Positions 5,193-39,866 of a DNA stretch of 64,000 nucleotides are shown here, one piece after another (the first letter of the stretch is position 1; each line of letters opens with the position of its first letter). The notes below the pieces were generated by a model. It made no database searches. It was not told where the DNA came from and was given only the letters and a program-made list of their open reading frames with translations. The DNA lies in NCBI GenBank assembly GCA_958295715.1, contig OY282371.1:186001-250000 (forward strand), in the 5' to 3' direction. Position numbers and translations under genes: made by a program. The stretch comes from an uncultured Dehalococcoidia bacterium. Its GTDB lineage: Bacteria; Chloroflexota; Dehalococcoidia; Lucifugimonadales; GCA-2712585.

Positions 5193-5198
5193 GGTCCG

Positions 5199-9599: not shown

Positions 9600-9602
9600 G
9601 GG

Positions 9603-10325
9603 TTAGTCCCCGGGGTCTACGGCCCCAAACCGCCTCTTGCGCTTGTGGTAGGACCGGAGGGCTTCCTCTATCTCCTGAGGGCCGAACTCCGGCCACGGCA
9701 CGGGGGTGGTGTAGAACTCGCTGTAGGCGGACTGCCACAGCAGGAAGTTGCTCAGGCGAAGTTCGCCGCCCGTTCTTATTATCAGGTCCGGGTCCGGGAT
9801 GCCCGGGGTGTACAGGTAGCGGGCAAGGAGGTCTTCATCCACGGCCTCGGCGGGGACATTGTCGCGTATCAGGCCCCGCACCGCTTGGACAATCTCGCTG
9901 CGCCCGCCGTAGTCGAAGGCGACGCTTAGGGTCATGCGCGTGTTGTCTCTGGTCAGGTCTTGGGCGTGGTTGATGGCCTCTTTGAGGTCGGGGTCAAGGC
10001 GGTGGGTGGAACCCAGGTGCAGAATGCGGACGCCTATCTTGTGGAGGGCGCGGGTCTCGTCGTCAATCACCTCGCGGAGCACGGCCATAATGCCCGACAC
10101 CTCGTGCTGAGGCCGGTTCCAGTTCTCGGTGGAGAAGGCGTAAATGGTGACGTGCTTCACGTTGTGGGCGTCCATAAGCTCCAACACGGAGCGTATCCTA
10201 GACACGCCCACCCTGTGCCCCTCCACGCGGGGGAGGCTGCGCTCCCTGGCCCAGCGCCCGTTGCCGTCCATGATGAGGGCTACGTGGAGGGGGGCTTCAG
10301 GCTTGTTGCGGCGGTCCTGCTGCAT
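9603..10325 (-). CDS. uppS: Undecaprenyl diphosphate synthase (cis-prenyltransferase)
   Basis: 240-residue cytosolic enzyme that extends farnesyl diphosphate to the C55 carrier lipid of cell-wall synthesis. The catalytic Asp lies in IMDGNGRWA near the N-terminus. FSTENWNRP, the IRTGGELRLSNFLLWQ region and the C-terminal EF(Y) region are all present. It lies between frr and cdsA in the conserved operon order, with 3 bases to cdsA and about 80 bases from frr. Confidence 0.96.
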   Translation of the reverse strand: MQQDRRNKPEAPLHVALIMDGNGRWARERSLPRVEGHRVGVSRIRSVLELMDAHNVKHVTIYAFSTENWNRPQHEVSGIMAVLREVIDDETRALHKIGVRILHLGSTHRLDPDLKEAINHAQDLTRDNTRMTLSVAFDYGGRSEIVQAVRGLIRDNVPAEAVDEDLLARYLYTPGIPDPDLIIRTGGELRLSNFLLWQSAYSEFYTTPVPWPEFGPQEIEEALRSYHKRKRRFGAVDPGD

Positions 10326-10405
10326 AGTCCGTTCTCGCTGGCGGCCCTTGACGGGGGTTGGCTGGAGGCGCGTGGCGGGGCGCCAAGGCGTTCATCCCCC
10401 GGCGG

Positions 10406-11729
<1,324 letters not shown>

Positions 11730-12233
11730 CTACTCGCCCATGGCAAAGCGGGCAAAGCGGATGACGCGGATGTTCTCGCCCACCTTGCCGATGGCTTCTT
11801 GTACCACCTCTTCAACCCGGCGGCTGGGGTCTTTGATGAAGGTCTGCTTAAGCAGGCAGACCTCTTCCGGAGGGCGGGGCTCGTCGGGCTTCAGGCCCTC
11901 GTCGCCAACGTAGAGGGGGGCCATGGCCGCCACCTGCATGGCCAGGTCGTGGGCCAGGGCCTTAATCTCGGCGGTGCGAGCCACGAAGTCGGTCTCGCAA
12001 CCCACCTCCACCAGGGCGCCGAGTCGCGCCCCGCTGTGGACGTAGGCCTCCACCAGCCCCTCCTTCGTCTCTCTGCCGGACCGCTTGGCGGCGGCGGCAA
12101 GACCGGCCGCCTTCAGGATTTCTTCCGCTTTGTCTAGGTCTCCCTCCGCTTCCTGAAGGGCCCGCTTGCAGTCCATTATGCCAACGGCGGTCCTCTCGCG
12201 GAGGGTCTTGATAAGGGTTACGCTAACCTCCAA
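11730..12233 (-). CDS. tsf: Elongation factor Ts, short form
   Basis: Guanine-nucleotide exchange factor for EF-Tu. At 167 residues it is much shorter than the E. coli protein (283) and resembles the short forms that lack the second core subdomain. The N-terminal UBA-like module is clear (LRERTAVGIMDCKRALQEAEGDLDKA begins near residue 9, with the KR-A-L signature), followed by a single core segment ending in RVEEVVQEAIGKVGENI. The start is TTG (12233-12231) with AGGAG about 8 bases upstream. The gene follows rpsB by 20 bases. Confidence 0.95.
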   Translation of the reverse strand: MEVSVTLIKTLRERTAVGIMDCKRALQEAEGDLDKAEEILKAAGLAAAAKRSGRETKEGLVEAYVHSGARLGALVEVGCETDFVARTAEIKALAHDLAMQVAAMAPLYVGDEGLKPDEPRPPEEVCLLKQTFIKDPSRRVEEVVQEAIGKVGENIRVIRFARFAMGE

Positions 12234-12253
12234 GGGTCACTCCTGTCGGGGCG

Positions 12254-13096
12254 CTAGTTTCTTGGGGAAGGGGTCGCTGCCAACGCGGGCCGGCTCCCCT
12301 GAGGGGGAAGGTCTTCAATAGGCTCGCCGGTCTCGATTTCCGGGGCCGCCTCCTCTTCGGCTTCCCGCTCCGCGGCCCGCCTCTGAAGGAGTCCCTCCAG
12401 GGCGCCGGTGGCTATCCGGGAGGTGATGAGCCGGATGGAGCGTATGGCGTCGTCGTTGCCGGGTATGCGGTAGTCGATGAGGTCCGGGTCGCAGTCCGAG
12501 TCGATGATGGAGACCAGGGTTATGCCCAGCTTGCGGGCCTCGGCCACGCAGATGTCCTCCTTGGGCATGTCCACCACGAAGAGGGCAGCCGGTAGGGTCT
12601 TCATGCCGCGGACGCCGCCGAGGTACTTTTGGAGCCGCTTTAGGCGTTCCTCCAGCTTCAGGGCTTCCTTCTTAATCATTACGTCGAAGTGGCCCGACTC
12701 CTTCTTCGCCTCCAGTTCAAGCATGAAGTCGATGCGCTTGCGGATGGTGGCGAAGTTGGTGAGGGTGCCGCCCAGCCACCGCTGGTTGACGTAGGGCATT
12801 TCGCAGCGGGACGCCTCGGTGGAGATGGACTCCTGGGCCTGCTTCTTGGTGCCCACGAAGAGGATGTCCCCCTGGGTGGCCACGATGTCTCTAACGGCCT
12901 CCACGGCCCTCTCCAGATAGCGAAGGCTCTTTTGCAGGTCTATGATGTGGATGCCGTTCCTCTGGGTGAAGATGTAGGACTTCATCCGTGGGTTCCACCG
13001 GCGCGTCTGGTGCCCGAAGTGCACTCCCGCCTCGAGGAGGGACTTCATGGTGATAGGCTCCATCTGCACAGGCCTTCGAGCGGTCTCTTGAACCAT
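12254..13096 (-). CDS. rpsB: 30S ribosomal protein S2
   Basis: 280-residue S2. Diagnostic segments: [45 protein letters not shown] and [10 protein letters not shown], with a C-terminal acidic/proline tail. It is first in the minus-strand operon; a good promoter lies about 60 bases upstream (13154-13182). Confidence 0.98.
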
Positions 13097-13153
13097 AAAA
13101 CCTGCCTTTTGTCTGCGACTTTCCGAGAATTGGGGTGGATGCGTCGGCTTTGG

Positions 13154-13182
13154 AGTATAGCATAGTGGTTGACGGCGGGCAA
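13154..13182 (-). promoter_or_regulatory. Promoter of the rpsB-tsf-pyrH-frr-uppS-cdsA-dxr-rseP-ispG run
   Basis: Read on the minus strand: TTGCCC (-35), a 17-base spacer, TATACT (-10). Transcription would begin near 13147, about 50 bases before the rpsB start. No other clear promoter is seen in the short gaps downstream, so this may drive all nine genes. Confidence 0.65.
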
Positions 13183-13729
13183 CGGCCGCCGGCCTCCGGC
13201 CGGGGCCACTCTTCTATCCCGTCATTCCCCCTCTCGCCTTCGTCATTCCCGCGCAGGCGGGAAGGGCACGCGCGCCCACTTAGTTTTGAAGAGCGTTGGT
13301 CGCCTTCCATCCGTCATTCCCGTGAAAACGGGAATCCAGGAAGGCCCCAACCCCGAACGGCAAATGTGTCGCCCACATGCCCCCGGCCCTCTTTTGGTGG
13401 CGGGCCAGCGATGGCCGCCCAGACCCTCTTATCCGTCATTCCCGCGTAGGCGGGAATCCATCCCATCCCCCGCCCCCGGTGCGACGGGGCAACCGGACAT
13501 CGGCGCGGACGCCCCTCTCCTCTCCTGTCATTCCCGCGCAGGCGGGAAGGGCGCGAGCGCCCGTTTTAGTTTTGAAGAGCGTCGGTCCTGGGTTGTGGGC
13601 TTCCTGGATTCCCGCCTTCGCGGGAATGACGGAAAGGGGCGGGCGGCAATGACGGGAGGGAGCGGGAATCCAGGGGTGGGGGGCCGGTTGCGCGTATGGG
13701 AGCGTGGGGAAAGGAAGGGCCGGGCGCGG
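13183..13729. repeat. Repeat-filled gap: five dRS3-like palindromes and a 98-bp composite element
   Basis: Copies of the 20-bp palindrome ATTCCCGCNNNNGCGGGAAT or variants at 13245, 13316 (the T/A stem variant with GAAA loop), 13438, 13530 and 13608. The block 13530-13627 is a complete composite: palindrome, GGGCGC-GCGCCC module with TTTTGAAGAGCG, then the palindrome in the other orientation. No gene is supported; the ORFs through this gap exist only because the repeats are GC-rich. Confidence 0.85.
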
Positions 13730-13758
13730 TGGCTATGCCGCCCTCGCAGCGCTATACT
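13730..13758 (+). promoter_or_regulatory. Possible promoter of the aminotransferase gene
   Basis: TATACT at 13753-13758 is a good -10. The hexamer 17 bases upstream (TGGCTA) matches only three positions of the -35 consensus. The predicted start near 13765 leaves a leader of about 30 bases with the SD TAAGGAGG. Confidence 0.4.
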
Positions 13759-13793
13759 TAGGCCCATTCAGTCACCACGCTAAGGAGGCTTTT

Positions 13794-14990
13794 ATGGCGC
13801 GAGGCGTCTTTGACTTCAGCGACCGCATCGCCAAGGGGATACCCTCCCCTTCCGGCGGCCGGCCGGGGGGAAGGGTCCGGCACGACTTCACCACGGCCTT
13901 CCCCGACCCCGACTCGTTCCCGGCGGATGGTCTGCTGGAGGCCTTGGGCCGCGCCCTCAAGGATGAGGGGCGGGACCTGGTCTACTACCCCCATCCCCAG
14001 GGCCACCCGGCCATGCGCGAGTTCATCGCCGGCAAGCTGGAGCGGGAACGGGGCATGAAGGTGACTCCCGACCAGATAATCCTCACCACCGGTTCGGGCC
14101 AGGCGGTGGCGAGATACGTTGAACTCCTGACGGACCCCGGCGACGTGATTATCACCGAGAAGTTCAGCTACTCCGGCACCATGGGCATCATGCGGCGCCA
14201 CGGGGCCAGGCTGGTGGGCGTGGACATGGACGCGGAGGGACTCCTTCCCGATGCCCTCGACGACACGCTGAAGGGCCTCGAGACCAGGGGCGAGCGGGCC
14301 AAGTTCATCTACGTCATCCCCACCTTCCAGAACCCCACGGGCGCGGACATGGGGTTGGAGCGGCGCCGGCAGGTCCTGGCCGTGGCTCAACGGCATGGCG
14401 TCCCTATCTTTGAGGATGACTGCTACGCCGACCTGCGGTTCGGCGGCGAGCCGTCTCCCTCCATCCAGTCTCTGGACGAGGAGGGGTCGACGCTGTATTG
14501 CGGCTCCTTCTCCAAAATCGTGGCTCCCGGCATGAGGTTGGGGTTCATGGCGGCCCCGCCGTCCGTAATAGAGTCGGTGAAGGCCATTCATTTGGGGGCA
14601 ACCCCCAGCCAGTTCGCCGCCCTCGCCACCCTCTACTATCTGAGGGACCATCTGGATGAGCACGTGCAGGAGCTGCGGGACATCTTCAGAGCCAAGAAGG
14701 ACACCGCCGTGGCCGCCGTGGGGGAGCGCATGGGGTCGCGGGTGGAGTGCAGCGACCCGGACGGCGGCCTGTACCTGTGGCTGAGGCTTCCCGAGGGGGC
14801 CGACACGGCCGCGGCCCTGCCCAAGGCCAGGGAGCGGCAGATAAGTTACGGCCCCGGAACCAACTTCTCCCCGGGCCAAGACGCCTACAACTATCTGAGG
14901 CTGTGCTACGGCCACCTGACCCACGAGACCATTCGCGAGGGCATCGCAAGTCTCGCGGAGTTCTTTGAGGAGGAGGGACTGCTGAAGTAA
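13794..14990 (+). CDS. PLP-dependent aminotransferase, class I/II (MocR/LysN-type fold)
   Basis: 398-residue fold-type I aminotransferase resembling 2-aminoadipate and aromatic or branched-chain amino acid transaminases. Visible: YYPHPQGHPAMREFIAG, the cofactor segment TTGSGQAV, PTFQNPTGADM, FEDDCYADLRF with the pyridine-N Asp, and the Schiff-base lysine in GSFSKIVAPGMRLGF. The ATG at 13794 is the start because TAAGGAGG ends 6 bases before it; the frame is open for 30 more codons upstream but these are repeat-derived. It has no N-terminal GntR domain, so it is an enzyme rather than a MocR regulator. The substrate cannot be told from the sequence. Confidence 0.9.
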   Translation: MARGVFDFSDRIAKGIPSPSGGRPGGRVRHDFTTAFPDPDSFPADGLLEALGRALKDEGRDLVYYPHPQGHPAMREFIAGKLERERGMKVTPDQIILTTGSGQAVARYVELLTDPGDVIITEKFSYSGTMGIMRRHGARLVGVDMDAEGLLPDALDDTLKGLETRGERAKFIYVIPTFQNPTGADMGLERRRQVLAVAQRHGVPIFEDDCYADLRFGGEPSPSIQSLDEEGSTLYCGSFSKIVAPGMRLGFMAAPPSVIESVKAIHLGATPSQFAALATLYYLRDHLDEHVQELRDIFRAKKDTAVAAVGERMGSRVECSDPDGGLYLWLRLPEGADTAAALPKARERQISYGPGTNFSPGQDAYNYLRLCYGHLTHETIREGIASLAEFFEEEGLLK

Positions 14991-15036
14991 CCGTCCCCGT
15001 TTAGCCTGCGCGGGGCTGAATCCGACTCTGCCGGGG

Positions 15037-16047
15037 ATGCGTATTAGGGTTGTGATGAGCTTGTTGAAAACTGGATTGCGATGGACGGTCTTGGCCCTGG
15101 GCCTGTGGGCCCTTGGCGCGCTGCTAATCGCCTGCGGCGGCGCGGCGACGCCCGACGCGTCCACCCCGTCTCCGGTGGAAGAGCCGCTGCGGGCCACCGC
15201 CATGCCCACGGCGGCACAAGACACGGCTGTTCCGGCGGCGACCCCCGCCGCGGCGCGGCCGACTGACGCCCCGGCTTCCACGCCTCCGCCCATACCGCCG
15301 GCAGCCGTTCCGACAGCCACGTCCGCGGCGCCGCGGCCAACGAGCGCTCCCGCATCCACGCCTCCGCCGGCCCCTGGGACGACCGTTCCGGCGGCCACGT
15401 CCCCGCCGCCACAGCCGACGGCCCTTCCCGCATCCACGCCGCCGCCAGCCCCTGGGACAGCCGTACCGGCGGCCACGGCCCCGCCGCCACAGCCGACAGC
15501 CCTTCCCGCATCCACGCCTCCATCCGCCCCTGGGACGCCGGAGCCGACGATTCCCCCCACGCCCACCCCCGCCCCGCCGACGGTCGCGCCGACGCCAACG
15601 CCGCCCCCCGTAGAGGTGGGCCACCGGGTGGGGCAGATGGCCCCGGACTTCCGAGTTATCACCATTGACGGGGAGGAGGTGTCGCTGAGCAGCTTCCAAG
15701 GCCGTCCGGTAGTCCTGTATTTCTTCGCCACGTGGTGACCCGCCTGCCGCGCCGCGTTGCGGCGCCTCAAGGACATTCATCCCGACTACGCGGAGCAGGT
15801 GGATATCTTTTTGGTGGACACGGACCCGTCGGAGAGCGCGAGCCGCATTCGCTCCTACAAGGAGTCCCAGGGGTTCTACTGGCCCATGGCGGAGACGGAG
15901 CGGGAGATTCTGCGGAGCTATAACATAGTCAGCCAGGCCTCCAAGGTGGCGATTGACCGCAACGGCGTCATCGTGTCCCGCAGCAGTTATGAAAGCGACA
16001 GCGAGAGGAGTTGGCGGGAGCTTTTGGAGTCTCTGGCAGGCTCCTGA
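15037..16047 (+). CDS. Predicted selenoprotein: lipoprotein with TlpA/thioredoxin-like domain (TGA = Sec234)
   Basis: One 336-codon gene read through an in-frame TGA at 15736-15738. An N-terminal signal peptide ends in the lipobox LLIAC (Cys33), so the protein is probably membrane-anchored outside the cytoplasm. Residues about 40-190 are a Pro/Thr/Ala linker with four 26-residue repeats. From about 198 comes a TlpA/AhpC-type thioredoxin domain: VGQMAPDFRVITIDGEEVSL, then the active site W-Sec-P-A-C at 233-237, where relatives have WCPAC or WCPPC. After the TGA the frame stays open for 102 codons with family features (PVDTD-like FLVDTD, the YNIVSQASKVAIDRNG strand-turn). A GC-rich hairpin follows the TGA at SECIS distance, and selA is 14 kb away. 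The alternative is a Cys-to-stop nonsense mutation. The likely role is periplasmic or surface thiol/disulphide or peroxide chemistry. Confidence 0.85.
15274..15573 (+). repeat. Four imperfect 78-bp in-frame tandem repeats (Pro/Thr/Ala linker)
   Basis: Units begin at 15274, 15352, 15430 and 15508; the last is shortened and diverges. Each encodes ASTPPP-x-P followed by PT/PA-rich sequence ending in A-L-P or S-A-P. Units 2 and 3 are nearly identical in DNA, pointing to recent unit duplication in the linker of the selenoprotein. Confidence 0.85.
15736..15765 (+). promoter_or_regulatory. UGA codon with SECIS-like stem-loop
   Basis: Ten bases after the TGA a perfect 7-bp stem starts: GCGCCGC (15749-15755), loop GTT (15756-15758), GCGGCGC (15759-15765). 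Bacterial SECIS elements lie just 3' of the UGA with the apical loop roughly 16-37 bases away and a GU in the loop bound by SelB. Here the loop begins 17 bases after the codon and carries GU. The local GC content makes chance stems likely, so this alone is weak support. Confidence 0.5.
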
Positions 16048-16150
16048 ACCGGCGGGCGAGGGTGGGCCCGGCCAACCTCTGTTTCCACCTTTTTTCCCTC
16101 CCTTACCCGTGGCGTGGCGTGAGTTGGCGGCCCGCCGGCCCGGCTAGACC

Positions 16151-17458
16151 ATGACGAAAGCCCCAGCCACGCCATCCCCGGCTGTGGGGGAGCCGGCGGC
16201 CCGGTGGTGGGCCGTTGGGATGCTGTCGGCGGCGACGCTGATGGGCATTACCGTGTGGTTGAGCGTCAACGCCATCGCGCCGGGCCTGGAACTAGAAACG
16301 GGTTTCTCGAAGGGCGACGTCGCCTGGCTCACCGCGGGGGTGCAGCTTGGGTTCGTGGCCGGGACGCTCATAATCGCCGCCACCAACTTGTCGGACCTGA
16401 TGAACGCCCGCGCCATCTTCGCCGTCAGCGCGGTGACGGCCGGGGCCTTGAACGCCGCCCTAGTCTTCATGCCCGGCGACTTCGCCTATGCCCTGGCGCT
16501 GCGGATACTGGTGGGGGTCTCTCTGGGCGGCGTCTACCCCATAGGCATGAAGATACTGGCGGGATGGTTTCGTTCCGGCAGGGGCGTCGCCATCGGGATG
16601 ATGGTGGCGGCGTTGACCATCGGCTCCGGGGCGCCGAACCTCCTCAACTCCATATTCGCGGCCCAGTGGGAGACCACCCTTTACATAAGCTCCGCCCTGT
16701 CCGTCGCGGCGGGAGGCATGGTCTACTTTCTGGTGAGGGACGGCCCCTACGAGGTGCCCACCGCGCCGTTCAACCTGTTCAACCTGAAATCCACCGTCTA
16801 CCTCTTCCCGACGTACGTGTCCCGCGTCTTCCCCAGCTACATGGGCTACATATGGAGGAACCGCGGGTTGCGGCTGGTTATTCTGGGATACCTGGGGCAC
16901 GCATGGGAGCTTTACGGCATGTGGGTTTGGATACCCGCCTTCTTGGCGGTCCGGTACGCCGGCGACAGTTTGTTTGGCGGGTTCTTGGGTCTGGCCAGTC
17001 TCTTGGCCTTTCTAACCTTTGTCGCCGGGGCCGTTGGAAGCGTGGCCGCCGGTTACGCCGCCAAGCGGTGGGGCCGGTGCGCCATCACCGGCTGCGCCAT
17101 GGCCATGAGCGGTGGAATGGCCCTGTCCATAGGCTTCCTGCCCGTGGAGTGGGGATGGGTCATAGCCATAGCCGCCCTCGTGTGGGGGGCCTCGGCGATG
17201 GCTGACTCGGCCCAGTTTTCCACCGGCGCGACGGAGCTTTCCCACGAGTCCTTCCGCGGCACCACGTTGACCTTGGAAATGGGCTTGGGGACCGTGATCT
17301 CCTTTGCGACCATACGCCTGGTTCCCATCCTCTCCGACTGGGCCGGCTGGGGCGTGGCCTTCGCCTTCCTGGCCATAGGCCCGGCGGTGGGAATAGCGGC
17401 CATGCTGAAGCTCCGCTCGCTGCCGGAGTCGGCGGCCATGGCCATGGGGAAGCGGTAG
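16151..17458 (+). CDS. MFS transporter, tandem copy 1
   Basis: 435-residue major facilitator with about 12 hydrophobic segments. The conserved loop after helix 2-3 reads LADLMNAR-like (here LSDLMNAR), and after helix 4 GWFRSGRGVAIG, a typical cytoplasmic loop motif. Closest visible relatives are the two genes that follow; all three end SLPESAAMAMGKR or similar. The start at ATG 16151 follows CGGCTAGACC with no Shine-Dalgarno sequence, a context conserved in the other copies. The substrate cannot be inferred; the family resembles nitrate/cyanate-type MFS carriers only in general layout. This copy has extra residues in the mid-loop (about 200-230) compared with copy 3. Confidence 0.9.
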   Translation: MTKAPATPSPAVGEPAARWWAVGMLSAATLMGITVWLSVNAIAPGLELETGFSKGDVAWLTAGVQLGFVAGTLIIAATNLSDLMNARAIFAVSAVTAGALNAALVFMPGDFAYALALRILVGVSLGGVYPIGMKILAGWFRSGRGVAIGMMVAALTIGSGAPNLLNSIFAAQWETTLYISSALSVAAGGMVYFLVRDGPYEVPTAPFNLFNLKSTVYLFPTYVSRVFPSYMGYIWRNRGLRLVILGYLGHAWELYGMWVWIPAFLAVRYAGDSLFGGFLGLASLLAFLTFVAGAVGSVAAGYAAKRWGRCAITGCAMAMSGGMALSIGFLPVEWGWVIAIAALVWGASAMADSAQFSTGATELSHESFRGTTLTLEMGLGTVISFATIRLVPILSDWAGWGVAFAFLAIGPAVGIAAMLKLRSLPESAAMAMGKR

Positions 17459-17540
17459 CGTTGCAAATTTTCTTTCGATGGGATTACGTGAGGGGGATGG
17501 CGTGGACTCGCCGGTTCGTCGCGCCGCCGCCGGCTAGACC

Positions 17541-18845
17541 GTGATGAAGGAAATAGCCACGCCATCCTCCGCTGCGGGAGAGTCGCCGGGCCGGTGGTGG
17601 ACCGTTGGGATACTGGCGGCGGCGACGCTGATGGGCCTCAGCGTGTGGTTCAGCGCCAACGCCGTCGCGCCGTCCCTGGAGTTGGAAAAGGGTTTCTCGA
17701 CCAAGGGCGACGTGGCCTGGTTCACCATGGGCGTGCAGCTTGGGTTCGTGGCCGGGACGCTCCTAATCGCCGCCACCAACTTGGCCGACCTGATGAACGC
17801 CCGCGCCCTCTTCGCCATCAGCGCGGTGGCGGCCGGGGTCCTCAACGCCGCCCTGGTCTTCATGCCCGGCGGCTTCGCCTCCGCCCTGATACTGCGGATA
17901 CTGGCGGGGGCCTTTATCGGGGGCGTATATCCCATGAGCATGAAGATACTGTCGGGATGGTTTCGTTCCGGCAGGGGCGTCGCCATCGGGGTGATAGTGG
18001 CGGCGGGAACCACCGGCTGCGGGTCGCCCCACCTCCTCAACTCCATATTCGCGGCCCAGTGGGAGGCCACCCTTTACGTAAGCTCGGCCCTGTCCGTGGC
18101 GGCGGGAGGAGTGGTCTACTTCCTGGTGAAGGACGGCCCCTACGACACCTCCCCCCCGCGGTTCAACCCGAAGTACGTAGTCTACTACTTCCCGCAATTC
18201 GTGTTCAGCTTCTTCCCCAAGTACGTGGTTCACGTCGTGAGGAGCCGTGGGCAGCGGCTGGTCCTTCTGGGATACCTAGGGCACATATGGGAGCTTTACG
18301 CTACCTGGGCGTGGCTGCCCGTCTTTTTGTTGGCTGTCTACGACGGCGACGGCGGCATGTTCGGAGGGTTCTTGGGCTTTGCCAGTCTCTTGGCCTTCCT
18401 GACGTTCATCGCCGGGGCCGTTGGAAGCGTGGCCGCCGGTTACGCCGCCAAACGGTGGGGCCGGTGCGCCGTCTCCGTCTGCGCCATGGTCGTAAGCGGG
18501 GGAATGGCCCTGTCCATAGGGTTCATGCCGGTGGGCTGGGAATGGGTCATAGCCATAGCCGCCCTGGTGTGGGGAGGGACGGCGATAGCCGACTCCGCCC
18601 AGTTTTCAACCGGCATGACGGAGCTTTCCCACCCGGCCTTCCGCGGCACCGCGTTGACCTTTCAAACCGGTCTAGGAGTTCTGCTCTCCATTGTGACCAT
18701 ACGCCTGGTTCCCGTCCTCTCCGACTGGGCGGGTTGGGGCGTGGCCTTCGCCTTCCTGGCCATAGGCCCGGCGGTGGGAACAGCGGCCATGCTGAGGCTG
18801 CGCGCGCTGCCGGAGTCGGCGGCCATGGCCATGGGGAAGCGGTAG
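17541..18845 (+). CDS. MFS transporter, tandem copy 2
   Basis: 434-residue paralogue of the preceding gene, with the same 12-helix plan, the LADLMNAR loop and the KILSGWFRSGRGVAIG loop. It starts at GTG 17541 or the adjacent ATG 17544. The mid-loop has the sequence FNPKYVVYYFPQFVFSF where copy 3 is shorter. Intergenic DNA before and after it (stop-proximal GGGAAGCGGTAGCGTTG and start-proximal CGCCGCCGGCTAGACC) is repeated in the other gaps, so the duplicated unit is gene plus spacer. Confidence 0.9.
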   Translation: MMKEIATPSSAAGESPGRWWTVGILAAATLMGLSVWFSANAVAPSLELEKGFSTKGDVAWFTMGVQLGFVAGTLLIAATNLADLMNARALFAISAVAAGVLNAALVFMPGGFASALILRILAGAFIGGVYPMSMKILSGWFRSGRGVAIGVIVAAGTTGCGSPHLLNSIFAAQWEATLYVSSALSVAAGGVVYFLVKDGPYDTSPPRFNPKYVVYYFPQFVFSFFPKYVVHVVRSRGQRLVLLGYLGHIWELYATWAWLPVFLLAVYDGDGGMFGGFLGFASLLAFLTFIAGAVGSVAAGYAAKRWGRCAVSVCAMVVSGGMALSIGFMPVGWEWVIAIAALVWGGTAIADSAQFSTGMTELSHPAFRGTALTFQTGLGVLLSIVTIRLVPVLSDWAGWGVAFAFLAIGPAVGTAAMLRLRALPESAAMAMGKR

Positions 18846-31571: not shown

Positions 31572-32141
31572 CTAGGCGGCGGAACAGATATTAACGATGA
31601 TTAAGACGATGACTAAAATTACAATCCCGCGTAGTCTCAATCTAAACAGTGCCCACCCTAAACGTCCGGATGGCGCGCCCCCTCTTGGGGCATTCCCGGG
31701 CATGCCCGTCTCCTTCTGGTAGCCGTAGGCAGCAGCGAGGCCATACAGGTAGCAGATAGCTATGTTCTCGTCGTGCGGCTTGGCGGCGGCTAGAATGGCG
31801 GGAATCCACATATTAACGAGGGTTCCATAGTCAACCCCTATTTTTATCCCTTCCGTTTCTTCCCAATCCTTCATTCCACGGAGTACGGCCCCCTGGGGGT
31901 CAAGGCCATAGCTCTTCTTATAGGCCAATAGCAACGCATCGGGACTAAAGGAATCCACCCTTAACTCTGGGACGGGAAGGCTGGTTGTCGTAACGCGGTC
32001 GTCGTCTACTAGCTTTAGGCATTTTGGGCAGGTGGTCAGGCGTGGGTCGGTAACAGGATTCACTCGAACGCGGATACGCTGACGCCCGCACAGGGTCAGA
32101 CGGTCGTCCTGATACCTCACCAGGTGAACGGGAGTCTGCAT
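31572..32141 (-). CDS. Zinc-ribbon-like protein with C-terminal membrane helix (module C, 189 aa)
   Basis: Three parts can be seen. Residues 1-45 carry LCGRQ and, about 23 residues later, TTCPKCLKL, a pattern like the short zinc-binding modules at the N-terminus of various actinobacterial and phage-associated small proteins. Residues 50-135 are a soluble domain I do not recognise (LLAYKKSYGLDP, WEETEGIKIGVDYG). The C-terminus is one hydrophobic helix, GIVILVIVLIIVNICSAA, matching the tails of modules A and B. It probably sits in the membrane with its bulk in the cytoplasm. Low GC relative to the neighbourhood; likely acquired. Confidence 0.6.
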   Translation of the reverse strand: MQTPVHLVRYQDDRLTLCGRQRIRVRVNPVTDPRLTTCPKCLKLVDDDRVTTTSLPVPELRVDSFSPDALLLAYKKSYGLDPQGAVLRGMKDWEETEGIKIGVDYGTLVNMWIPAILAAAKPHDENIAICYLYGLAAAYGYQKETGMPGNAPRGGAPSGRLGWALFRLRLRGIVILVIVLIIVNICSAA

Positions 32142-32379: not shown

Positions 32380-32556
32380 AGCCCCCTCTCCGACTTAGGC
32401 TTGAGACCCTCTGTCACAACGGTTCAACCCTGGGCAAGTCAGCAAAGGGGGCATGGCTGTAGAGCCTCTGCCCGCACGGATACTGACTTGCCGCGTGAAC
32501 TGGGAAGTGGGTTGAAGCGGCCCGTTGTGACCGCCTCAATCTATCAGGGGGATGCT
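32380..32556. ncRNA. Candidate rod-shaped structured RNA
   Basis: The segment folds on itself with little choice. 32413-32430 pairs with 32509-32531 (18 bp with a 5-base bulge at 32517-32521), 32433-32442 pairs with 32483-32492 (10 bp), and the apex pairs GGGCA with TGCCC and GGCT with AGCC. Outside, TTGAG/CTCAA and CCCCT/AGGGG extend the rod to about 177 bases. A 2-versus-16-base asymmetric internal loop interrupts it. The size and layout recall bacterial 6S RNA, but I see no diagnostic sequence, and the strand cannot be fixed. It could also be the folded remains of an inverted repeat of a mobile element. No ORF of substance covers it. Confidence 0.4.
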
Positions 32557-33188
32557 ACGAAGTCAAATTGCTATTCCTGGCAATAGGCGCGTTATTGCAG
32601 GGGTAGAGCGCGCGCAATCACGCAGTTCTCGTTGCAAAGGTCCTGCCAAAGGAGGGGGGCGCCTGCGCGTCATATTAAGTAACGACCCGCCAAGCCGACC
32701 GCTCCTTTTCCCCCTCCGCCATTCCCGCGAAGGCGGGAATCCATCCCCTCCCCTCCGTTGCGCCGAGGCCGATGGCGCCATGGCGCGCCCCGCCCCATTC
32801 CGTCATTCCCGCGCAGGCGGGAAGGGCGCGTGCGCCCACTTAAGTTTTGAAGAGCGTTGGTCCTGCGTTGCAGCCTTCCTGGATTCCCGCCTACGCGGGA
32901 ATGACGGATAAGAGGGCGGGAATCCATCTTCCCTCTTCTACTACGCCAAGAGAACGAGTCGAATCATGGAGGCGCTCCCCTTCCCCCTTCTTAGCGGTTA
33001 GGAGCGAGAGAAGGGTTGCCGACTAGCGACGCTCCTACGGGTGCCTTGGAATTCGGGGCGTTGGCTTTGGGATGAAGGGTTCCTAGATTCCCGCCTGCGC
33101 GGGAATGACGGAATGGGGAGCGCAGGGCGACATGACGGAGGGCGTGGTTGCGCCAGCACTCGCCATGGCGCGCGTTCCCATCCGGGCG
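32557..33188. repeat. Repeat-filled gap: four dRS3-like palindromes, one complete 98-bp composite
   Basis: Palindromes at 32721, 32805, 32883 and 33087. The block 32805-32902 is a complete MITE-like composite matching 13530-13627 in length and order. 32585-32650 contains further small stems (CAATA/TATTG) but nothing I can name. No gene is supported. Confidence 0.8.
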
Positions 33189-33232
33189 CAAGGGTAGCCT
33201 TTGGCGAGAGTGTTCGCCTGAAGCTACCCTTG
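33189..33232 (-). terminator. Two-part hairpin downstream of the amidohydrolase
   Basis: CAAGGGTAGC (33189-33198) pairs with GCTACCCTTG (33223-33232), and inside it GGCGA pairs with TCGCC around the loop GAGTGT. It lies 22 bases beyond the stop of the minus-strand amidohydrolase. There is no T run, so it may protect the 3' end or act with Rho rather than terminate alone. Confidence 0.45.
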
Positions 33233-33253
33233 GAAAGACCCGGGCTGGGCGGC

Positions 33254-34369
33254 CTAGCTGATCTGGAACATCTTGGCGCAGTTCTCGCCGGCGATGAGGA
33301 CCTTCTCCTCCTCCGGGACGCCCTCAAGAATGCGGTCCACTATCTCGCGGGACTTGGGGAAGGTGGACTCGGCGTGGGGGTAATCGGAGCCCCACATGAG
33401 GGTCTCCACGCCCACGTAGTCCCGCATCGTGATGCCGAGGTCGTCCTCCTGGAAGCTGAGGAACATGTTGCTCTTGAAGAAGTCGCTGGGCAGGGCGCCG
33501 TTCTTGTACCTGCGGGCGAACCGGTTGGGCCGCTCCTCGTACACCTTGTCCATCCGGTTCAGCAGGTAGGGCGCCCAGGCTATCTCGTACTCGGCCACGC
33601 CTATCCTGAGGTCGGGATGGTCCTCAAAGAGGCCGGAGTACAGGATGGCCGTAACGTTGTCCTTCATGTCGTATTCCTGGTTGGTGAACTCCACCAAACC
33701 CTTGTCGGTTCCAAAGGAGGGGGCGCCGCCGGGACGCCACCGGGAGGTGCCGATGTGGATGGCCAGGGGCATGTCCAACTCCTCGGCGGCCTGCCACAGG
33801 GGTTCGTACATGGGGCTGTTGTAGCGGCCAAAGACGGGACGCTGGGGAATCATGGCGCCGGCCAGCCCTATCTCCTTGGCGCGCCTTAGCTCCCTGACCC
33901 CCTCCTCCACGCTGTCAACGTTGAGCATGGCCAGACCGCGCAGGCGGTCGGGGTAGGGGGCGCAGAAGTTGGCCAGCCAGTCGTTGTAGGCGCGGAAGAC
34001 GGCGGAGAGGAGGTCGGATGAGGGGATTACCCAGGTGGTTAGGCCCATGGAGGGGAAGATGACGCCCCCCGCCACGGTGTCGAGGTCCATGTCCTTGACG
34101 TGGGCGTGGGGGTCCATGCCGCCGAGGATAACGTCCTCGTAAACGCCCTCGCTTTGGATGGTCTCGGGGGCGTCGAAGCGCCGGCCCGCCTGGGTGTTGG
34201 AGCCGACGATGCCGAACTTGATGTCACCGTCGGCGTACCACTGGTCGAACTCGCCCTCGCGCACCACGTGAGGGGCGCGGGTCCGGTATTCGGGGTCTAT
34301 GTGGTTGGTCCACAGGTCGGGTGGTTCCATGATGTGGGAGTCTGAAGACACCAGCTTGTAATCTGACAT
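33254..34369 (-). CDS. Amidohydrolase, family 2 (TIM-barrel metal-dependent hydrolase/decarboxylase)
   Basis: 371-residue cytosolic enzyme of the ACMSD/amidohydrolase-2 group. The N-terminal VSSDSHIMEPPDLW corresponds to the metal-binding start of the barrel (often DxH). LAIHIG supplies a further His, EYEIAWAPYLLNRMD follows, and WGSDYPHAESTFPKS carries the late metal/catalytic Asp. It is paralogous to the gene at 44560-45690, which shares DYKL(V/I)S-x-DSHI and GSDYPH. SD AGGAGG lies ahead of the ATG. It stands alone with its own promoter and 3' hairpin, GC-rich between AT-rich accessory DNA. The substrate is unknown; relatives act on aromatic or oxoacid carboxylates. Confidence 0.88.
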   Translation of the reverse strand: MSDYKLVSSDSHIMEPPDLWTNHIDPEYRTRAPHVVREGEFDQWYADGDIKFGIVGSNTQAGRRFDAPETIQSEGVYEDVILGGMDPHAHVKDMDLDTVAGGVIFPSMGLTTWVIPSSDLLSAVFRAYNDWLANFCAPYPDRLRGLAMLNVDSVEEGVRELRRAKEIGLAGAMIPQRPVFGRYNSPMYEPLWQAAEELDMPLAIHIGTSRWRPGGAPSFGTDKGLVEFTNQEYDMKDNVTAILYSGLFEDHPDLRIGVAEYEIAWAPYLLNRMDKVYEERPNRFARRYKNGALPSDFFKSNMFLSFQEDDLGITMRDYVGVETLMWGSDYPHAESTFPKSREIVDRILEGVPEEEKVLIAGENCAKMFQIS

Positions 34370-34549: not shown

Positions 34550-34568
34550 TACACTGAAGCTCAGTGTA
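34550..34568 (+). promoter_or_regulatory. Inverted repeat immediately before druA (operator or leader hairpin)
   Basis: TACACTGA-AGC-TCAGTGTA is a perfect 8-bp inverted repeat with a 3-base centre, ending 3 bases before the ATG at 34572. A direct half-site ACACTGAT lies just upstream (34543-34550). As DNA it could bind a dimeric regulator; as RNA it would hide the translation start region, where no SD is seen. Confidence 0.5.
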
Positions 34569-34571
34569 ACC

Positions 34572-35726
34572 ATGGAAGATACTAATGCGTCAGGCGTGAT
34601 CAACTCTGTAGAGTTGAAGTCTATGATTCTCCGGTCACTGCAAGACCAGGGATTCCGCATTGACGGAACGCAGCGGCTATCACCCGTTAATCAATGGGAC
34701 AAAACCCACTTGCGGGCCTTACATTCGACTGCGGTTAGGCACAAGCGGGAGCGGTCTCGAAAAGGACTGCAACGGCATGAGAGCCGGCTCCTCACCATGT
34801 TGGCTGATGGCCGGGAAGTAGATCCCCAATCCATCTCACCTCGGCTTGTGGAGGTTACGCCGGGCTCGGTGAACGAGTTGCTGTTCCGGTATGCAGCCCT
34901 CCATTGGAGCATCCCCGTCTCTTCCGGGTATGGACGGCGCATCCGATTCCTTGTGATAGACGAGCACAACGGCAAGCTAATGGGCATATTCGGTCTTGGC
35001 GACCCGGTCTTTAATCTCGGAGCGCGAGACCGGTGGGTTGGCTGGAATAAGCCCGCCGCAAGACAACGGCTGAGGCACGTTATGGAGCTTTTCGTGCTGG
35101 GAGCGGTCCCGCCATACACCTCTCTATTATGCGGCAAACTCGTCGGGCTGATAGCCGGCAGCGACGAAGTGCGCCAGAGCTTCATTAGCAAGTATTCCGG
35201 TCGCAGGGCGTTAATCTCCGCGAATGTCCGGGATGCAAGGCTGGCCATGTTGACTACAACTTCCGCTTTGGGACGCTCATCAATATACAACCGCCTTAAA
35301 TTCAAGGGGAGACGCGCCTTTGTCAGTGTGGGGTTTACCAGGGGGTACGGAGAGTTTCATTTCTCGAACGGATTGTATTCAGTGATTTCGGAGTATGCCT
35401 TGCGCCATCTGAAACCCACGGCAAAACAAGCTGCCTGGGGCGTTGGGTTCAGAAACCGGAGGGAATTGGTCGGGAAATGCCTAGCCCATATCGGTCTGTC
35501 CGGGGAGTGGCTGCATCATGGCATCAGCAGAGAGGTGTTTGTTGTGCCGTTGGCCGACAACGCCCAGGAGTTTTTGCGCGGTGACCAGTCAGAGTTGCGA
35601 GAGTTCCGACGGCCAATGTCCGAGGTGTTTGATTTCTTTAGGGAGAGATGGTTGATGCCGCGCAGCAGGTGGGACCTGCGTTACCGGGAATGGCGGCCTG
35701 AAGAGTGGCGACTATGGGGCGAGTGA
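34572..35726 (+). CDS. druA: DUF4338 (Druantia DruA-like) protein
   Basis: 384 residues. The DUF4338 core, known from DruA of type I Druantia anti-phage systems, is clear: LHSTAVRHKRERSRKGLQ (about 48-65), RIRFLVIDEHNGKLMGIFGLGDPVF (starts near 126), DRWVGW, MELFVLGAVPPYTSLLCGKLV and VRQSFISKYSGR. The second half has the typical GYGEFHFSNGLY and IGLSGEWLHHGISREVFVVPL. The biochemical activity of DUF4338 is not established to my knowledge. The gene starts a three-gene run with NurA-like and HerA-like genes (13-base gap, then 1-base overlap). No DruE helicase, DruB, DruC or DruD is nearby. Lower GC than the chromosome suggests acquisition. Confidence 0.85.
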   Translation: MEDTNASGVINSVELKSMILRSLQDQGFRIDGTQRLSPVNQWDKTHLRALHSTAVRHKRERSRKGLQRHESRLLTMLADGREVDPQSISPRLVEVTPGSVNELLFRYAALHWSIPVSSGYGRRIRFLVIDEHNGKLMGIFGLGDPVFNLGARDRWVGWNKPAARQRLRHVMELFVLGAVPPYTSLLCGKLVGLIAGSDEVRQSFISKYSGRRALISANVRDARLAMLTTTSALGRSSIYNRLKFKGRRAFVSVGFTRGYGEFHFSNGLYSVISEYALRHLKPTAKQAAWGVGFRNRRELVGKCLAHIGLSGEWLHHGISREVFVVPLADNAQEFLRGDQSELREFRRPMSEVFDFFRERWLMPRSRWDLRYREWRPEEWRLWGE

Positions 35727-35739
35727 TGGAGCGGTAGCA

Positions 35740-36852
35740 TTGCGCGAGCCTTTTTCAGACCTCCCGGACGCTCTGGTTAAAGACCTGTTAGAGGCCGCCA
35801 TGCCGGTATCCGCGGAGGTCCGCGCCCGTTTTAACAAACTCAGGAATGATCGCGCAGGCTATAGGCGTAATGCTGTTGCTTGCGGCTTGATCCGGCGGAA
35901 GGCCGACCTTGACGTGCCCCGGGAGCCATCCGTGGCCGGCATTGACGGATCCTACCAACTCCACCGGCTGACGTCTTTGGACTTGTGCGCTGCCGCGGCT
36001 GTAGCTGTCGAAGGGACTTCTAAAGAAGCTATCCGGCATTGGCCTGAACCTTATCACCGGATTTGGGTGAGGGGAGTTCCCCACGCCGATGAGACCAGCC
36101 TGGTATTGCGTGGCTTGATGGTTGGCATGGAGTTGGAGTTGGCCAACCTTTCGCCCCATGACTTGACCTTGATAGATGGCGCGTTCGGGTCTCTAATCAT
36201 CTATTTGAACCAGGGTTTATCCAACGTTGGCGCCCGCCGCGCCGTTCTGAGCGCTGAACTGAAGGAGCGCTGGGAAAACCAGCAAATTTTAAGTCGTCTC
36301 TTGGCCCTCCTTCGCAGTGACCGCGCGGTGGCTGTCCCCAAATTCACGTCACGAAATGAACTGGCTAAGCCCCTGGGTATTAGCTCATCGGATGCTATTG
36401 ATGGCCGGACCCTCGCCACCCTCATCCTCAAATCCGGGGAATACACGGCCCCTCTGCCTGTGTACGAGGAGGAATATCATCTGCCCCGCGCCTTTTGCTC
36501 AGAAGGAGATGACTTAGCCATGAACCACGCCCTTCAAGCAGTTAGGGTCGTGTATTACAGGCCCTATGAATGGGTCCCATCAGTTAGGCTTGAGTTGCCA
36601 GGGCCCATCGCCAACAGCCTAACCCGTCTATCCATAGCCTTAGAGGGGATACACCGGCAGTTCTTTTCCCCGGCGGTATTGGAACCATATCCTCTTTTCT
36701 TGGCGGACCGGATGGTGAAGAGCCTTGGCGCCGGGGTTAGTGTGGTTGAGCAAACAGTGTCGCAACAGGTTGTAGATACGGGCGTTGATCTTGAACTGAC
36801 AATGCTTCTCCTTCAAAATTATCGCACAGAAGGAGGTAGAGGAGGGGTTTGA
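35740..36852 (+). CDS. nurA: NurA-like 5'-3' nuclease
   Basis: 370 residues from TTG 35740; GGAG lies 8-11 bases upstream and no ATG fits. The NurA domain begins with VAGIDGSYQLHR, whose Asp (residue 69) is the first metal ligand, and the second acidic site is in TLIDGAFGS (Asp146). Late segments HLPRAFCSEGDD and a long C-terminal part fit the NurA barrel, with YPLFLADRMVKSLGAGV and other family features near the end. NurA works with the HerA translocase in DNA end processing in archaea; in bacteria such pairs occur in defence loci. Its stop overlaps the HerA-like ATG (TGATG). Confidence 0.82.
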   Translation: MREPFSDLPDALVKDLLEAAMPVSAEVRARFNKLRNDRAGYRRNAVACGLIRRKADLDVPREPSVAGIDGSYQLHRLTSLDLCAAAAVAVEGTSKEAIRHWPEPYHRIWVRGVPHADETSLVLRGLMVGMELELANLSPHDLTLIDGAFGSLIIYLNQGLSNVGARRAVLSAELKERWENQQILSRLLALLRSDRAVAVPKFTSRNELAKPLGISSSDAIDGRTLATLILKSGEYTAPLPVYEEEYHLPRAFCSEGDDLAMNHALQAVRVVYYRPYEWVPSVRLELPGPIANSLTRLSIALEGIHRQFFSPAVLEPYPLFLADRMVKSLGAGVSVVEQTVSQQVVDTGVDLELTMLLLQNYRTEGGRGGV

Positions 36853-38621
36853 TGACATCGGGGCCGAATCAGGACATTGGCGTAATAGGTAGTCCGTCAA
36901 CCAATACTGAGTTGACTATAGACTTGTTAATGGAGGCGACTGAGGAGCGGATAGTGGGAGCGCTGGTGGCCTTCGATTCTACTCAAAATGGAAAGCATAT
37001 CAAGTCTGTTGGGCAGATTGTGGGAATAGAGTTGAAGAACCGGTGGCATGAGGACTCGGTGTTTCGGAACCTCATTAAACGCACTGGTGAGATACCCCCC
37101 ATCACCAACCGTCAGGATACCCGTATCGCTGATTTGGTGGTAGGCGCGACCTTCAAAGAGGAAAACCAAGGATATGAGCCCGATGTCCTTGGCATGGTCC
37201 CATCCACCGGAACCAGGATAGTCAGGGTAGACCAAGGGGTTCTTGACACCCTGCTAGAGGTGTACCAGAAAGAGATTTTTTACCTCGGCATGGCCTACGC
37301 CAACGACGTGAGGTATCCCATGTGGTTCAAGCACTTTGGCAGTGGCCCGCAAGGAGCGGGAGAGGCGTACCACATGGGCGTTTTCGGCAAGACCGGATCA
37401 GGCAAGTCGGGGCTGGCCAAGATGCTGCTATTGGCCTATGCCCGCCATCCGGAGATGGGGATTCTCATCATTGACCCGCAGGGTGAGTTCTCATTAGAGC
37501 TATCCGGGTCAATGGTTGGACAGCAACGACTTCCAGTCAAAGGAGTTCTGGATGGGCTGGGGCGTCCTGCTAAGGTCTATCGCATTCAGAACTTGCAATT
37601 GGACGAATGGAATCTTTTTGAGGAGTTGCTAGTTGCGCTCCGGTTTACAGAGCATCTGGGTATACCATCGACATCCGCCGATAATTCAAGGAAGGCCGCC
37701 GAAAAAATCTGCGGTGACCTAAGAAAGAAGAAGTATCGTCTCGACTCCCTTGACTCAGAGGATGCCCTGAAGCAAGCGTTGCGCGCCGTGATTACGCCTC
37801 AGAACTCCGCGTATATTTATGCTACCAGGGAAAGGGCAAACCAGCTTGTAAGTTATGTGCAAGACATCCTTCAGAACCGGTTAAGGGAGGTGTACAACAG
37901 CGGGTGGAGTCCCATTGCCGGGCTCTTTGGAACTGCTCCAGAGCGGCGTACTCTATATGGCATCGTATCCGATCTGATAGGCGCCAACCCTGCGGGAACA
38001 CGGAAACCGTCCATCATCGCCGTAGACCTCTCCGAGCAAGGAAACAGCAAATTTTGGTCTGAGGGTCTTCAGCGTAGGCTTATCGATAAGCTTTTGAACA
38101 TTCTTGTCACGCAATCTTCAGGGCAACTGGGGACTAATGACTCGGCCAACACTCTGGTCTTATTGGATGAAGCCGCGCGTCTCGCGCCATCCGGCAGCCT
38201 TGAAAGGGGAAGTGAAGCGGAGCGACTGAGGGCTACTCTCCGGCGCGCGGTGAGGGAGACTCGCAAGTATGGAATCGGCTGGTTCTTCGTTAGCCAGACG
38301 CTGGGCGGCATTGACAACGATATACTTCAGCAGTTGCGCATCCTGTTCTTTGGGTTTGGCCTGTCTTTGGGAGATGAGTTCCGCAAACTGCGTGAGTTTG
38401 CTGGCGGAGATAACCGGTCAATGGATCTCTACCGGTCATTTAGGGACCCACACAGCGCGCCGCGTCCTGATTTGCGAGAATTTCCGTTCATGGCGGTGGG
38501 CCCGGCCTCTCCCCTAGCTTTCAGCGGCCGTCCCCTGTTCTTCTCCGCATTCAGCAGTTCTGATGAATTTCTCACGGCTAATCAGTTGTTAGCGGTGGGC
38601 CAACTGCAAATGTCGCCATAA
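36852..38621 (+). CDS. herA: HerA-like hexameric ATPase/translocase
   Basis: About 589 residues. The N-terminal HAS-barrel segment (IVGALVAFDS...GQIVGIEL) is followed by Walker A GKTGSGKS (about 179-186), ILIIDPQGEFSLE, Walker B LVLLDEAARLAP (about 435-446), and RKYGIGWFFVSQTLGGID, with the sensor/arginine region typical of the FtsK-HerA group. HerA forms a hexamer that moves on double-stranded DNA and drives NurA. I take ATG 36852, overlapping the nurA stop; TTG 36849 is just upstream in frame. The overlap with nurA argues for a fixed-ratio complex. The cassette ends here; the next genes converge from the other strand. Confidence 0.88.
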   Translation: MTSGPNQDIGVIGSPSTNTELTIDLLMEATEERIVGALVAFDSTQNGKHIKSVGQIVGIELKNRWHEDSVFRNLIKRTGEIPPITNRQDTRIADLVVGATFKEENQGYEPDVLGMVPSTGTRIVRVDQGVLDTLLEVYQKEIFYLGMAYANDVRYPMWFKHFGSGPQGAGEAYHMGVFGKTGSGKSGLAKMLLLAYARHPEMGILIIDPQGEFSLELSGSMVGQQRLPVKGVLDGLGRPAKVYRIQNLQLDEWNLFEELLVALRFTEHLGIPSTSADNSRKAAEKICGDLRKKKYRLDSLDSEDALKQALRAVITPQNSAYIYATRERANQLVSYVQDILQNRLREVYNSGWSPIAGLFGTAPERRTLYGIVSDLIGANPAGTRKPSIIAVDLSEQGNSKFWSEGLQRRLIDKLLNILVTQSSGQLGTNDSANTLVLLDEAARLAPSGSLERGSEAERLRATLRRAVRETRKYGIGWFFVSQTLGGIDNDILQQLRILFFGFGLSLGDEFRKLREFAGGDNRSMDLYRSFRDPHSAPRPDLREFPFMAVGPASPLAFSGRPLFFSAFSSSDEFLTANQLLAVGQLQMSP

Positions 38622-38654: not shown

Positions 38655-39866
38655 TCAGCTGAGGACGCCGGCGTTGGCGAGGGCGTCGATTTGGGAGTCG
38701 GGGAGGCCCAGGACCTCCCGGCACACGCGGCGGGTGTGCTCGCCCAGGAGGGGCGCGGGCCTGTACCTGGCCTGGCTTTCCGATAGGTGGAAACAGTTGG
38801 CGTCGTAGGCGTGGCGGCCTATCTCCTTGTGCTCCAAGGAGACGTAGTGGCCACGATGCCGGAGTTGAGGGTCGTTGAACAGGTCCTCGCAGGTCTGGGC
38901 CACCCCCGCCGGGACCCCTGCGGCCTGGCACCGGGCCATGAGGTCGAAGGGCTCCTGATCCCGGGTCCACCCGGCGATGACCTCGTCCAGCGACTCCTCG
39001 TTATCCTTACGGGCCTGGGCGTCGCGAAACCTTGGGTCGCCGGCCAAAGCGGGTCGTCCCATGAGGCGGCAGAGGGCGCGCCACTCCGCGTCGCTGCGGC
39101 AGACGATGGCGCACCACCGGTCGGCGCCGGAGCAGGGGTAGGCGTTGTGGGGGGCGTACACGTCGTGCCTGTTCCCCCGGCGCGTCCCAACCCGGTTATT
39201 GGCGGCGTAGTCCATGAGGGCCGGGGCCACGAAGTAGAGGGAACCTTCCAACTGGGAAAGGTCGATATGCTGTCCCCCGCCGGTGCGGCGCCGGTGGTCT
39301 AGGGCCGCGGCGATGGCGGATACGGCCAGGTGAGGCAGCAGGAAGTCGGTATAGGCGCCGTAGGGGCTGGTGGGCGTGCGGTCGGGCCAGCCGGTTAGGT
39401 GTGTGTGGCTGGATAGGGCGGTGAGGACGGGGCCAAAGCCGGGGTGGTTGGAGTAGGGGCCTCCCCTGCCCTGCATGGAGGCGCTGAACATGATAACGCC
39501 GGGGTTCGTCTTCTTCACGTCGTCGTAGCCCAGGCCCCACCGCTCCATGACGCCGGGGGTGAAATTTTCTGTGACCACGTCGGCCCAGCGAGCCAGGGAA
39601 CGGGCCAACTCCCTGGCCTGGGGCATGGCCATGTTCAGGGCCATGCTATGTTTGCCGCCGTTGTAGTTGGCGAAGTAGCCGCTGCGGTTGACGCCGGGGA
39701 CGCCGTCCTTGTGGGGCGTGGCCGTTCGGAGGGTGTCGATGCGGTGAATGGACTCGACCCGCGTCACGGTGGCCCCGAAATCGGCCAGGTAGCGGGTGGT
39801 CATGGGTCCGATGGCCACCCAGCAGAAGTCGAGGACCTTTACGCCCGACAGTGGAGCCACGGTCAT
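38655..39866 (-). CDS. Type III CoA-transferase (CaiB/BaiF family), copy 1
   Basis: 403 residues. Family III CoA-transferases move CoA between carboxylic acids through an Asp-anchored intermediate. LSGVKVLDFCWVAIGPMTTRYLADFGATVTRVES opens the Rossmann-like domain (quoted positions 5-38 in part), NYNGGKHSMALNM follows and the catalytic Asp lies in the WADVVTENFTPGVM region. The ATG overlaps the stop of copy 2 upstream (ATGA), so both are coupled and may form a heteromer. It is the last gene of the minus-strand catabolic run. Confidence 0.9.
   Translation of the reverse strand: MTVAPLSGVKVLDFCWVAIGPMTTRYLADFGATVTRVESIHRIDTLRTATPHKDGVPGVNRSGYFANYNGGKHSMALNMAMPQARELARSLARWADVVTENFTPGVMERWGLGYDDVKKTNPGVIMFSASMQGRGGPYSNHPGFGPVLTALSSHTHLTGWPDRTPTSPYGAYTDFLLPHLAVSAIAAALDHRRRTGGGQHIDLSQLEGSLYFVAPALMDYAANNRVGTRRGNRHDVYAPHNAYPCSGADRWCAIVCRSDAEWRALCRLMGRPALAGDPRFRDAQARKDNEESLDEVIAGWTRDQEPFDLMARCQAAGVPAGVAQTCEDLFNDPQLRHRGHYVSLEHKEIGRHAYDANCFHLSESQARYRPAPLLGEHTRRVCREVLGLPDSQIDALANAGVLS

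Follow-up and report, generated by a model that had tools for sequence, protein, structure and literature searches.

A three-gene cassette encoding DruA, NurA and HerA was analysed in a 64,000-nucleotide stretch of DNA (the window) from an uncultured Dehalococcoidia bacterium (GCA_958295715.1, contig OY282371.1, positions 186,001 to 250,000). The trio is probably a horizontally spread system that destroys invading DNA, in which a constant NurA-HerA engine works with an exchangeable DruA subunit for recognition or licensing. The analysis showed the conservation of the trio, the intact catalytic residues, the NurA fold of the nuclease, the accessory status of the cassette, the tight co-evolution of NurA and HerA, and the repeated exchange of DruA.

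By analogy with HerA-NurA of Thermococcus kodakarensis and with DUF4297-HerA, HerA is proposed to feed NurA, and DruA to decide. The HerA ring would drive duplex DNA into a dimer of NurA, where both strands would be cut, and DruA would recognise the invader or license the engine, setting which DNA is attacked or when. A physical complex of the proteins, degradation of DNA by this pair, an anti-phage or anti-plasmid purpose and a recognition duty for DruA would all belong to this proposal. The role of DruA on NurA-HerA would parallel the one that it may have in type I Druantia, there towards the helicase DruE. The T. kodakarensis pair, the HerA-NurA studied best so far, degrades both strands of double-stranded DNA with ATP and Mn, and its authors doubted a role in resection and suggested an antiviral one (PMC12977600). 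A first-pass annotation of the window had suggested that DruA could be the sensor or recognition part feeding a HerA-NurA resection engine; its recognition half is suggested by the swapping of DruA, but "resection" is probably wrong, since the T. kodakarensis pair cuts both strands and the genome has a separate core pair.

HerA-nuclease pairs and Druantia are known kinds of defence, and a compact trio with a swapped DruA isolates the role of DruA, which can be tested by exchanging DruA alone. The trio also makes a foreign-DNA role plausible for bacterial and archaeal NurA-HerA, an idea put forward not long ago for the T. kodakarensis pair (PMC12977600). If it is a defence system, it is a widespread one that is absent from the PADLOC-DB 2.0 list.

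Conservation of the trio and its catalytic residues

The DruA gene (34572-35726, + strand, 384 amino acids (aa), ATG start) was followed after a gap of 13 bases by the NurA gene (35740-36852, + strand, 370 aa, TTG start). The HerA gene (36852-38621, + strand, 589 aa) started at the ATG of a TGATG and overlapped the NurA stop by 1 base, with an alternative TTG start at 36849. These open reading frames (ORFs) are the three coupled genes, with the same spacing, that had been described previously, and they form one operon. A Shine-Dalgarno-like purine-rich stretch (aaggaggtagaggaggg, 36830-36846, + strand), read from the sequence, lay ahead of the HerA start.

The phylum sample consisted of 301 Chloroflexota genomes, and a close NurA relative was defined at E < 1e-30. 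With the cassette NurA as query, close relatives were found in 14 of the 301 genomes. HerA lay after NurA in every neighbourhood retrieved from these 14 genomes, and DruA lay ahead of NurA in them, the exception being the members of one family (f61). The DruA-family search returned 19 genomes, of which 11 were common to the NurA set, and DruA and NurA were adjacent in all 11. Co-occurrence no better than chance had been named beforehand as a result that would count against the cassette; it was far better than chance (Fisher p = 6.7e-13 in the 301 genomes).

A wide scan with a NurA alignment against 84,980 species genomes gave 164 loci, of which the best 80 were kept. The assemblies were mostly metagenomic, and a few of the 80 loci (L129, L137 and L141) duplicate genomes sampled earlier. 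The order DruA-NurA-HerA was kept in 71 of the 78 evaluable loci, two others (L093 and L103) being interrupted by contig ends. These 71 loci comprised 68 in which all three genes were recognised by hidden Markov model (HMM), two with a divergent DruA (L129 and L141) and one (L095) whose DruA is a fragment cut off by the edge of the contig. The hosts of the 80 loci covered about 20 phyla, archaea included. Because the same order recurs over so wide a host range and the Fisher test agrees, the trio is not a chance grouping.

Other arrangements were also seen. Locus L070 held an independent NurA-HerA-DruA arrangement with a different gene order. In L066 (9667-15186), DruA was followed by two unknown proteins and then a HerA-like ATPase, possibly another DruA-HerA arrangement. 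Plasmid pRlX5 of Rhizobium leguminosarum (L183, 4851-11081) carried a divergent NurA-HerA pair that lacks DruA. An unknown 387-aa protein is encoded ahead of this pair and a GHKL ATPase-domain protein after it, possibly a different module on the same NurA-HerA engine. In L074 (genome G190) the NurA-HerA copy was decayed, with several stop codons; therefore, the system is also undergoing loss.

The DruA core, NurA acidic sites and HerA Walker motifs that the first-pass annotation had read in the three products were borne out, as all three scored above their Pfam cut-offs and the active-site residues of NurA and HerA were essentially invariant in 63 complete cassettes. NurA matched PF09376 with 39.1 bits (cut-off 21), and the PADLOC scan of the cassette gave no match to a NurA model. 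Its acidic residues D69 and D146 were present in 63/63 cassettes and E131 in 62/63, and D69 corresponded in an alignment to the Asp in the "YAVDGS" motif from P. furiosus. The AlphaFold2 model of NurA had a predicted local distance difference test (pLDDT) score of 92.9. In Foldseek searches it matched the solved structures of NurA proteins from Thermococcus, Sulfolobus and other sources with E values of 4.8e-11 to 1.8e-7 [9x1m from T. kodakarensis: E 4.8e-11; also 2ygk and 3tai]. Judged from this model, the cassette nuclease has the NurA fold.

HerA matched Pfam DUF87/HerA with 52 bits (cut-off 23.2), and its PADLOC matches (HerA/mad8) were weak. Numbered from the ATG at 36852, its Walker A (179-186), Walker B (D439-E440), R471-K472 and Q482 were all invariant or nearly so in the same 63 cassettes. 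R471-K472 aligned onto R466-K467 of T. kodakarensis HerA (9x1l), residues critical for ATP hydrolysis (PMC12977600). The HAS barrel (PF09378) was not detected in the cassette HerA at E values up to 1, and a diverged barrel may lie below HMM sensitivity.

Exchange of DruA on the NurA-HerA pair

The pairwise distances of NurA correlated strongly with those of HerA (r = 0.89), whereas those of DruA correlated weakly with the distances of NurA (r = 0.54) and of HerA (r = 0.39). The NurA clade of the window copy (N1) held together as one clade (100%) in the trees of NurA and of HerA, with 1 change each; on the DruA tree its members required 6 changes, of which at least 2 were forced by starred branches (all quick trees). 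Two pairs of loci were extreme examples. L083 and L100 shared 78% identity in DruA and 38% and 41% in NurA and HerA; L119 and L034 shared 35% in DruA and 81% and 77% in NurA and HerA. As many independent contigs underlie this signal, single chimeras cannot account for it. Sequence comparison thus indicates that NurA and HerA co-evolve tightly and that DruA has been repeatedly exchanged. DruA is replaced while the pair persists, yet nearly every pair has a DruA, and this is the signature that an exchangeable subunit for recognition or licensing would be expected to leave.

DruA matched PF14236 (DUF4338) with 367.5 bits (cut-off 27) and the PADLOC model PDLC00002 (DruA1) with 365.9 bits. Its AlphaFold2 model (pLDDT 91.4) gave weak Foldseek matches in the PDB, nearly all of them GNAT acyltransferases (best E 0.036), and a search of the PDB with the DruA sequence gave no convincing match. 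The DruA core is therefore weakly predicted to be GNAT-like, in agreement with a comparative genomic study in which DUF4338 is listed as a GNAT domain (PMC10853773). Strictly invariant in the 63 cassettes were W112, R122, D130, R152, P180-P181-Y182, G188-K189, S236-S237, Y239 and R241. Residue 184, which corresponds to the Arg/Gln of the GNAT cofactor loop as we mapped that loop by reading, was not conserved (R 15, D 12, F 7 and Q 6 of 63).

The acyltransferase neighbours, the GNAT listing and the many invariant residues would also suit a DruA that is itself the effector, a GNAT-like enzyme modifying a host or invader molecule after NurA-HerA engages foreign DNA. We consider this quite improbable, as the fold matches are weak, the cofactor-loop position varies, a nuclease effector is already supplied by NurA, and the swapping of DruA while the engine stays the same suits recognition better than effector duty.

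DruA also occurred next to DruE-like helicases, in L067, L068 and plasmid Druantia loci, and the DruE-linked DruAs formed their own clade (96*, three rows). The genome of the window itself has a Druantia-type locus 1.45 Mb from the cassette, at C1 about 1.672-1.683 Mb (L208, G000:C1:1664001-1684000, 8198-18816). Its genes encode DruE (PADLOC DruE2/DruE4, about 1800 bits), DruF4, DruL4, a nicking-endonuclease-like HhH protein and a C5 methyltransferase (DruM-like). The absence of DruE reported in the first-pass annotation is thus true of the cassette but not of the genome. The presence of these DruE/DruF/DruL/DruM-like genes would allow the cassette DruA to act in trans with that DruE, with NurA-HerA as an unrelated neighbour. 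Such an arrangement is highly improbable, given the adjacency of DruA to NurA-HerA in 71/78 loci and in 11/11 co-occurring sampled genomes and the separate clade of the DruE-linked DruAs.

The reading of DruA as an exchangeable subunit may extend further. In PMC13192584, DruE of Druantia III is described as a helicase-nuclease effector; on that description, DruA may work with motor-nuclease engines of two kinds. It is conceivable, and we put it forward tentatively, that in bacterial DNA-destruction machines DruA acts as a general plug-in module for recognition, exchanged among constant NurA-HerA engines like the specificity subunits of type I restriction systems and elsewhere docked on DruE or fused to Dnd-type proteins. 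If so, the trio would be a separate, widespread defence system with recombining specificity.

Accessory status and genomic context

The cassette is bordered by an amidohydrolase-like gene upstream (33254-34369, - strand) and a CoA-transferase-like gene downstream (38655-39866, - strand), both outside the system, and these two genes also border its empty site. In genome G303, of the same family, they are neighbours with 217 bp between them. In G304, of a related genus in the same family (L178, about 4730-5550), about 920 bp lie between them and hold an antitoxin/PIN-toxin-like pair (read by eye). At E < 1e-30 the cassette NurA was found in 2/147 relatives, only G000 (the genome of the window) and G439, and G439 carries the full DruA-NurA-HerA trio. 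The cassette is accessory, not core. The GC content of the cassette was 53-58% against 64-69% in the surroundings, in line with the earlier description of AT-richer DNA between high-GC genes.

A separate NurA-HerA pair was found in the same genome at C1 1.638-1.642 Mb (L207, G000:C1:1630001-1650000, 8040-11547; NurA 101 bits, HerA 94.5 bits with a HAS barrel). The NurA of this core pair was present in 34/40 relatives and is widely conserved in the order, and BLASTP showed no significant similarity between it and the NurA of the cassette (18.5 bits, E 0.34). Because the genome has this separate pair, the cassette represents an extra, specialised NurA-HerA and not a housekeeping resection machine, and its assignment as a housekeeping repair pair was made unlikely.

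An auxiliary system for DNA repair or end processing was also considered, in which NurA-HerA would trim broken ends and DruA would be a regulator or end-recognition factor. Repair is the role for which NurA-HerA was originally described, the cassette has an intact NurA fold and intact HerA motifs, and it is often located among metabolic genes. This explanation is nonetheless unlikely: the core pair stands apart, with its conserved and dissimilar NurA, and the cassette is patchy, has empty sites, has crossed between phyla and exchanges its DruA, a pattern uncommon among repair genes.

The evidence supported a cassette that is horizontally spread and mobile. The spread across phyla, the empty sites and the lower GC could also reflect a part of a mobile element, with HerA and NurA serving its transfer, excision or maintenance and DruA as an element-encoded accessory protein. 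At the edges of the window copy, however, no integrase, relaxase, tRNA or convincing flanking or terminal repeats were seen, and copies were absent from phage records and rare on plasmids: none in 50,697 phage records, two weak NurA matches in 72,556 plasmids, and one viral contig with a copy. We regard this explanation as very unlikely.

Restriction-type genes within or beside some copies support a putative defence role for the trio. A TmtA-like GHKL protein was inserted between DruA and NurA in L098 (2833-5964) and L101 (2769-5933), an ATPase-like pentapeptide-repeat protein at the same position in L099 (3666-5963), and the restriction protein GmrSD separated NurA from HerA in L103 (1435-3201); type I restriction genes lay beside the NurA-HerA pair of L134.

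Several observations weigh against this role or are neutral towards it. The scarcity of copies in phage and plasmid records is one, and the location of many copies, that of the window included, among metabolic genes is another. The matched scan showed no clear enrichment of defence genes: the Chloroflexota flanks gave 23 PADLOC models in 124 proteins against 57 in 125 for the control of random regions, the latter driven by one CRISPR-Cas locus (best 25 models listed). The flanks of the wider set held more, 123 PADLOC models in 120 proteins, a count that has no matched control. NurA-HerA occurred without DruA in seven loci (L092, L131, L134, L135, L148, L149 and L150), so DruA is not strictly required. 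To our knowledge, the function of DruA is not known, and its biochemical activity has been demonstrated in no known system.

Within the window, the promoter and terminator scan gave sites no more numerous than in shuffles, and the Rfam search gave no match. ORF translations on both strands at 32552-33330 contained recurring "DSRLRGNDG" / "SFPRRRESR" peptides, which suggests a dispersed palindromic DNA repeat. At 31572-32141 (- strand), 2.4 kb upstream of the cassette, a 189-aa ORF without a Pfam, PADLOC or NCBIfam match lay in a 53% GC patch.

Comparison with known systems

The trio was not found as a described system in the literature searched or among the PADLOC-DB 2.0 models, and its novelty is provisional because subscription literature lay outside the search. 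Its first annotation as a candidate undescribed gene set is supported within that scope, and the classifier check suggested at that time (PADLOC) recognised DruA and, weakly, HerA, with no system of this gene set.

The cassette DruA belongs to the same family as DruA of type I Druantia over its whole length, and it was 39% identical to a DruA encoded on a Pseudomonas putida plasmid, in a locus where a DEAD/DEAH helicase gene follows downstream. Unlike type I Druantia, the cassette had no DruB, DruC, DruD or DruE, and NurA and HerA occupied the place of the DruE helicase. No DruB, DruC or DruD ORF was found between or beside the three genes. A full Druantia I was ruled out on this operon content, as the first-pass annotation had held.

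As in SIR2-HerA and DUF4297-HerA, the cassette has a HerA-type ATPase with Walker A/B motifs and an arginine finger beside an effector gene. In DUF4297-HerA, both proteins assemble into one anti-phage complex that degrades double-stranded DNA (PMC11291478). The cassette differs in its nuclease, a NurA with an RNase H-like fold, and in the extra DruA. No SIR2 or DUF4297 partner was matched in the Pfam and PADLOC scans of the cassette, and its HerA is not a member of the NCBIfam anti-phage HerA families, for which it scored 16.8 and 16.5 bits (cut-offs 800 and 850).

With canonical HerA-NurA [archaea, Deinococcus and the core pair of the genome], the cassette shares the NurA fold and active-site pattern and the HerA motifs, including the R466-K467 equivalents; the gene order NurA then HerA is that of the core pair. 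The cassette pair is, however, very divergent in sequence, has no HAS-barrel match, is accessory instead of core, and is accompanied by DruA.

DUF4338/GNAT domains and HerA/FtsK ATPases also occur together in some DndFGH variants, termed "HerA/FtsK capture" (PMC10853773), but in those variants they are parts of large multidomain fusion proteins that also carry restriction endonuclease and kinase domains, and NurA is not present. Locus L073 (5896-15855) resembles such DndFGH-type systems, in that a large protein of 1247 aa with a DruA domain is encoded upstream of a HerA-like protein of 1596 aa. Compared with Druantia I, SIR2-HerA/DUF4297-HerA and canonical core HerA-NurA, the cassette departs from each in a tested defining feature.

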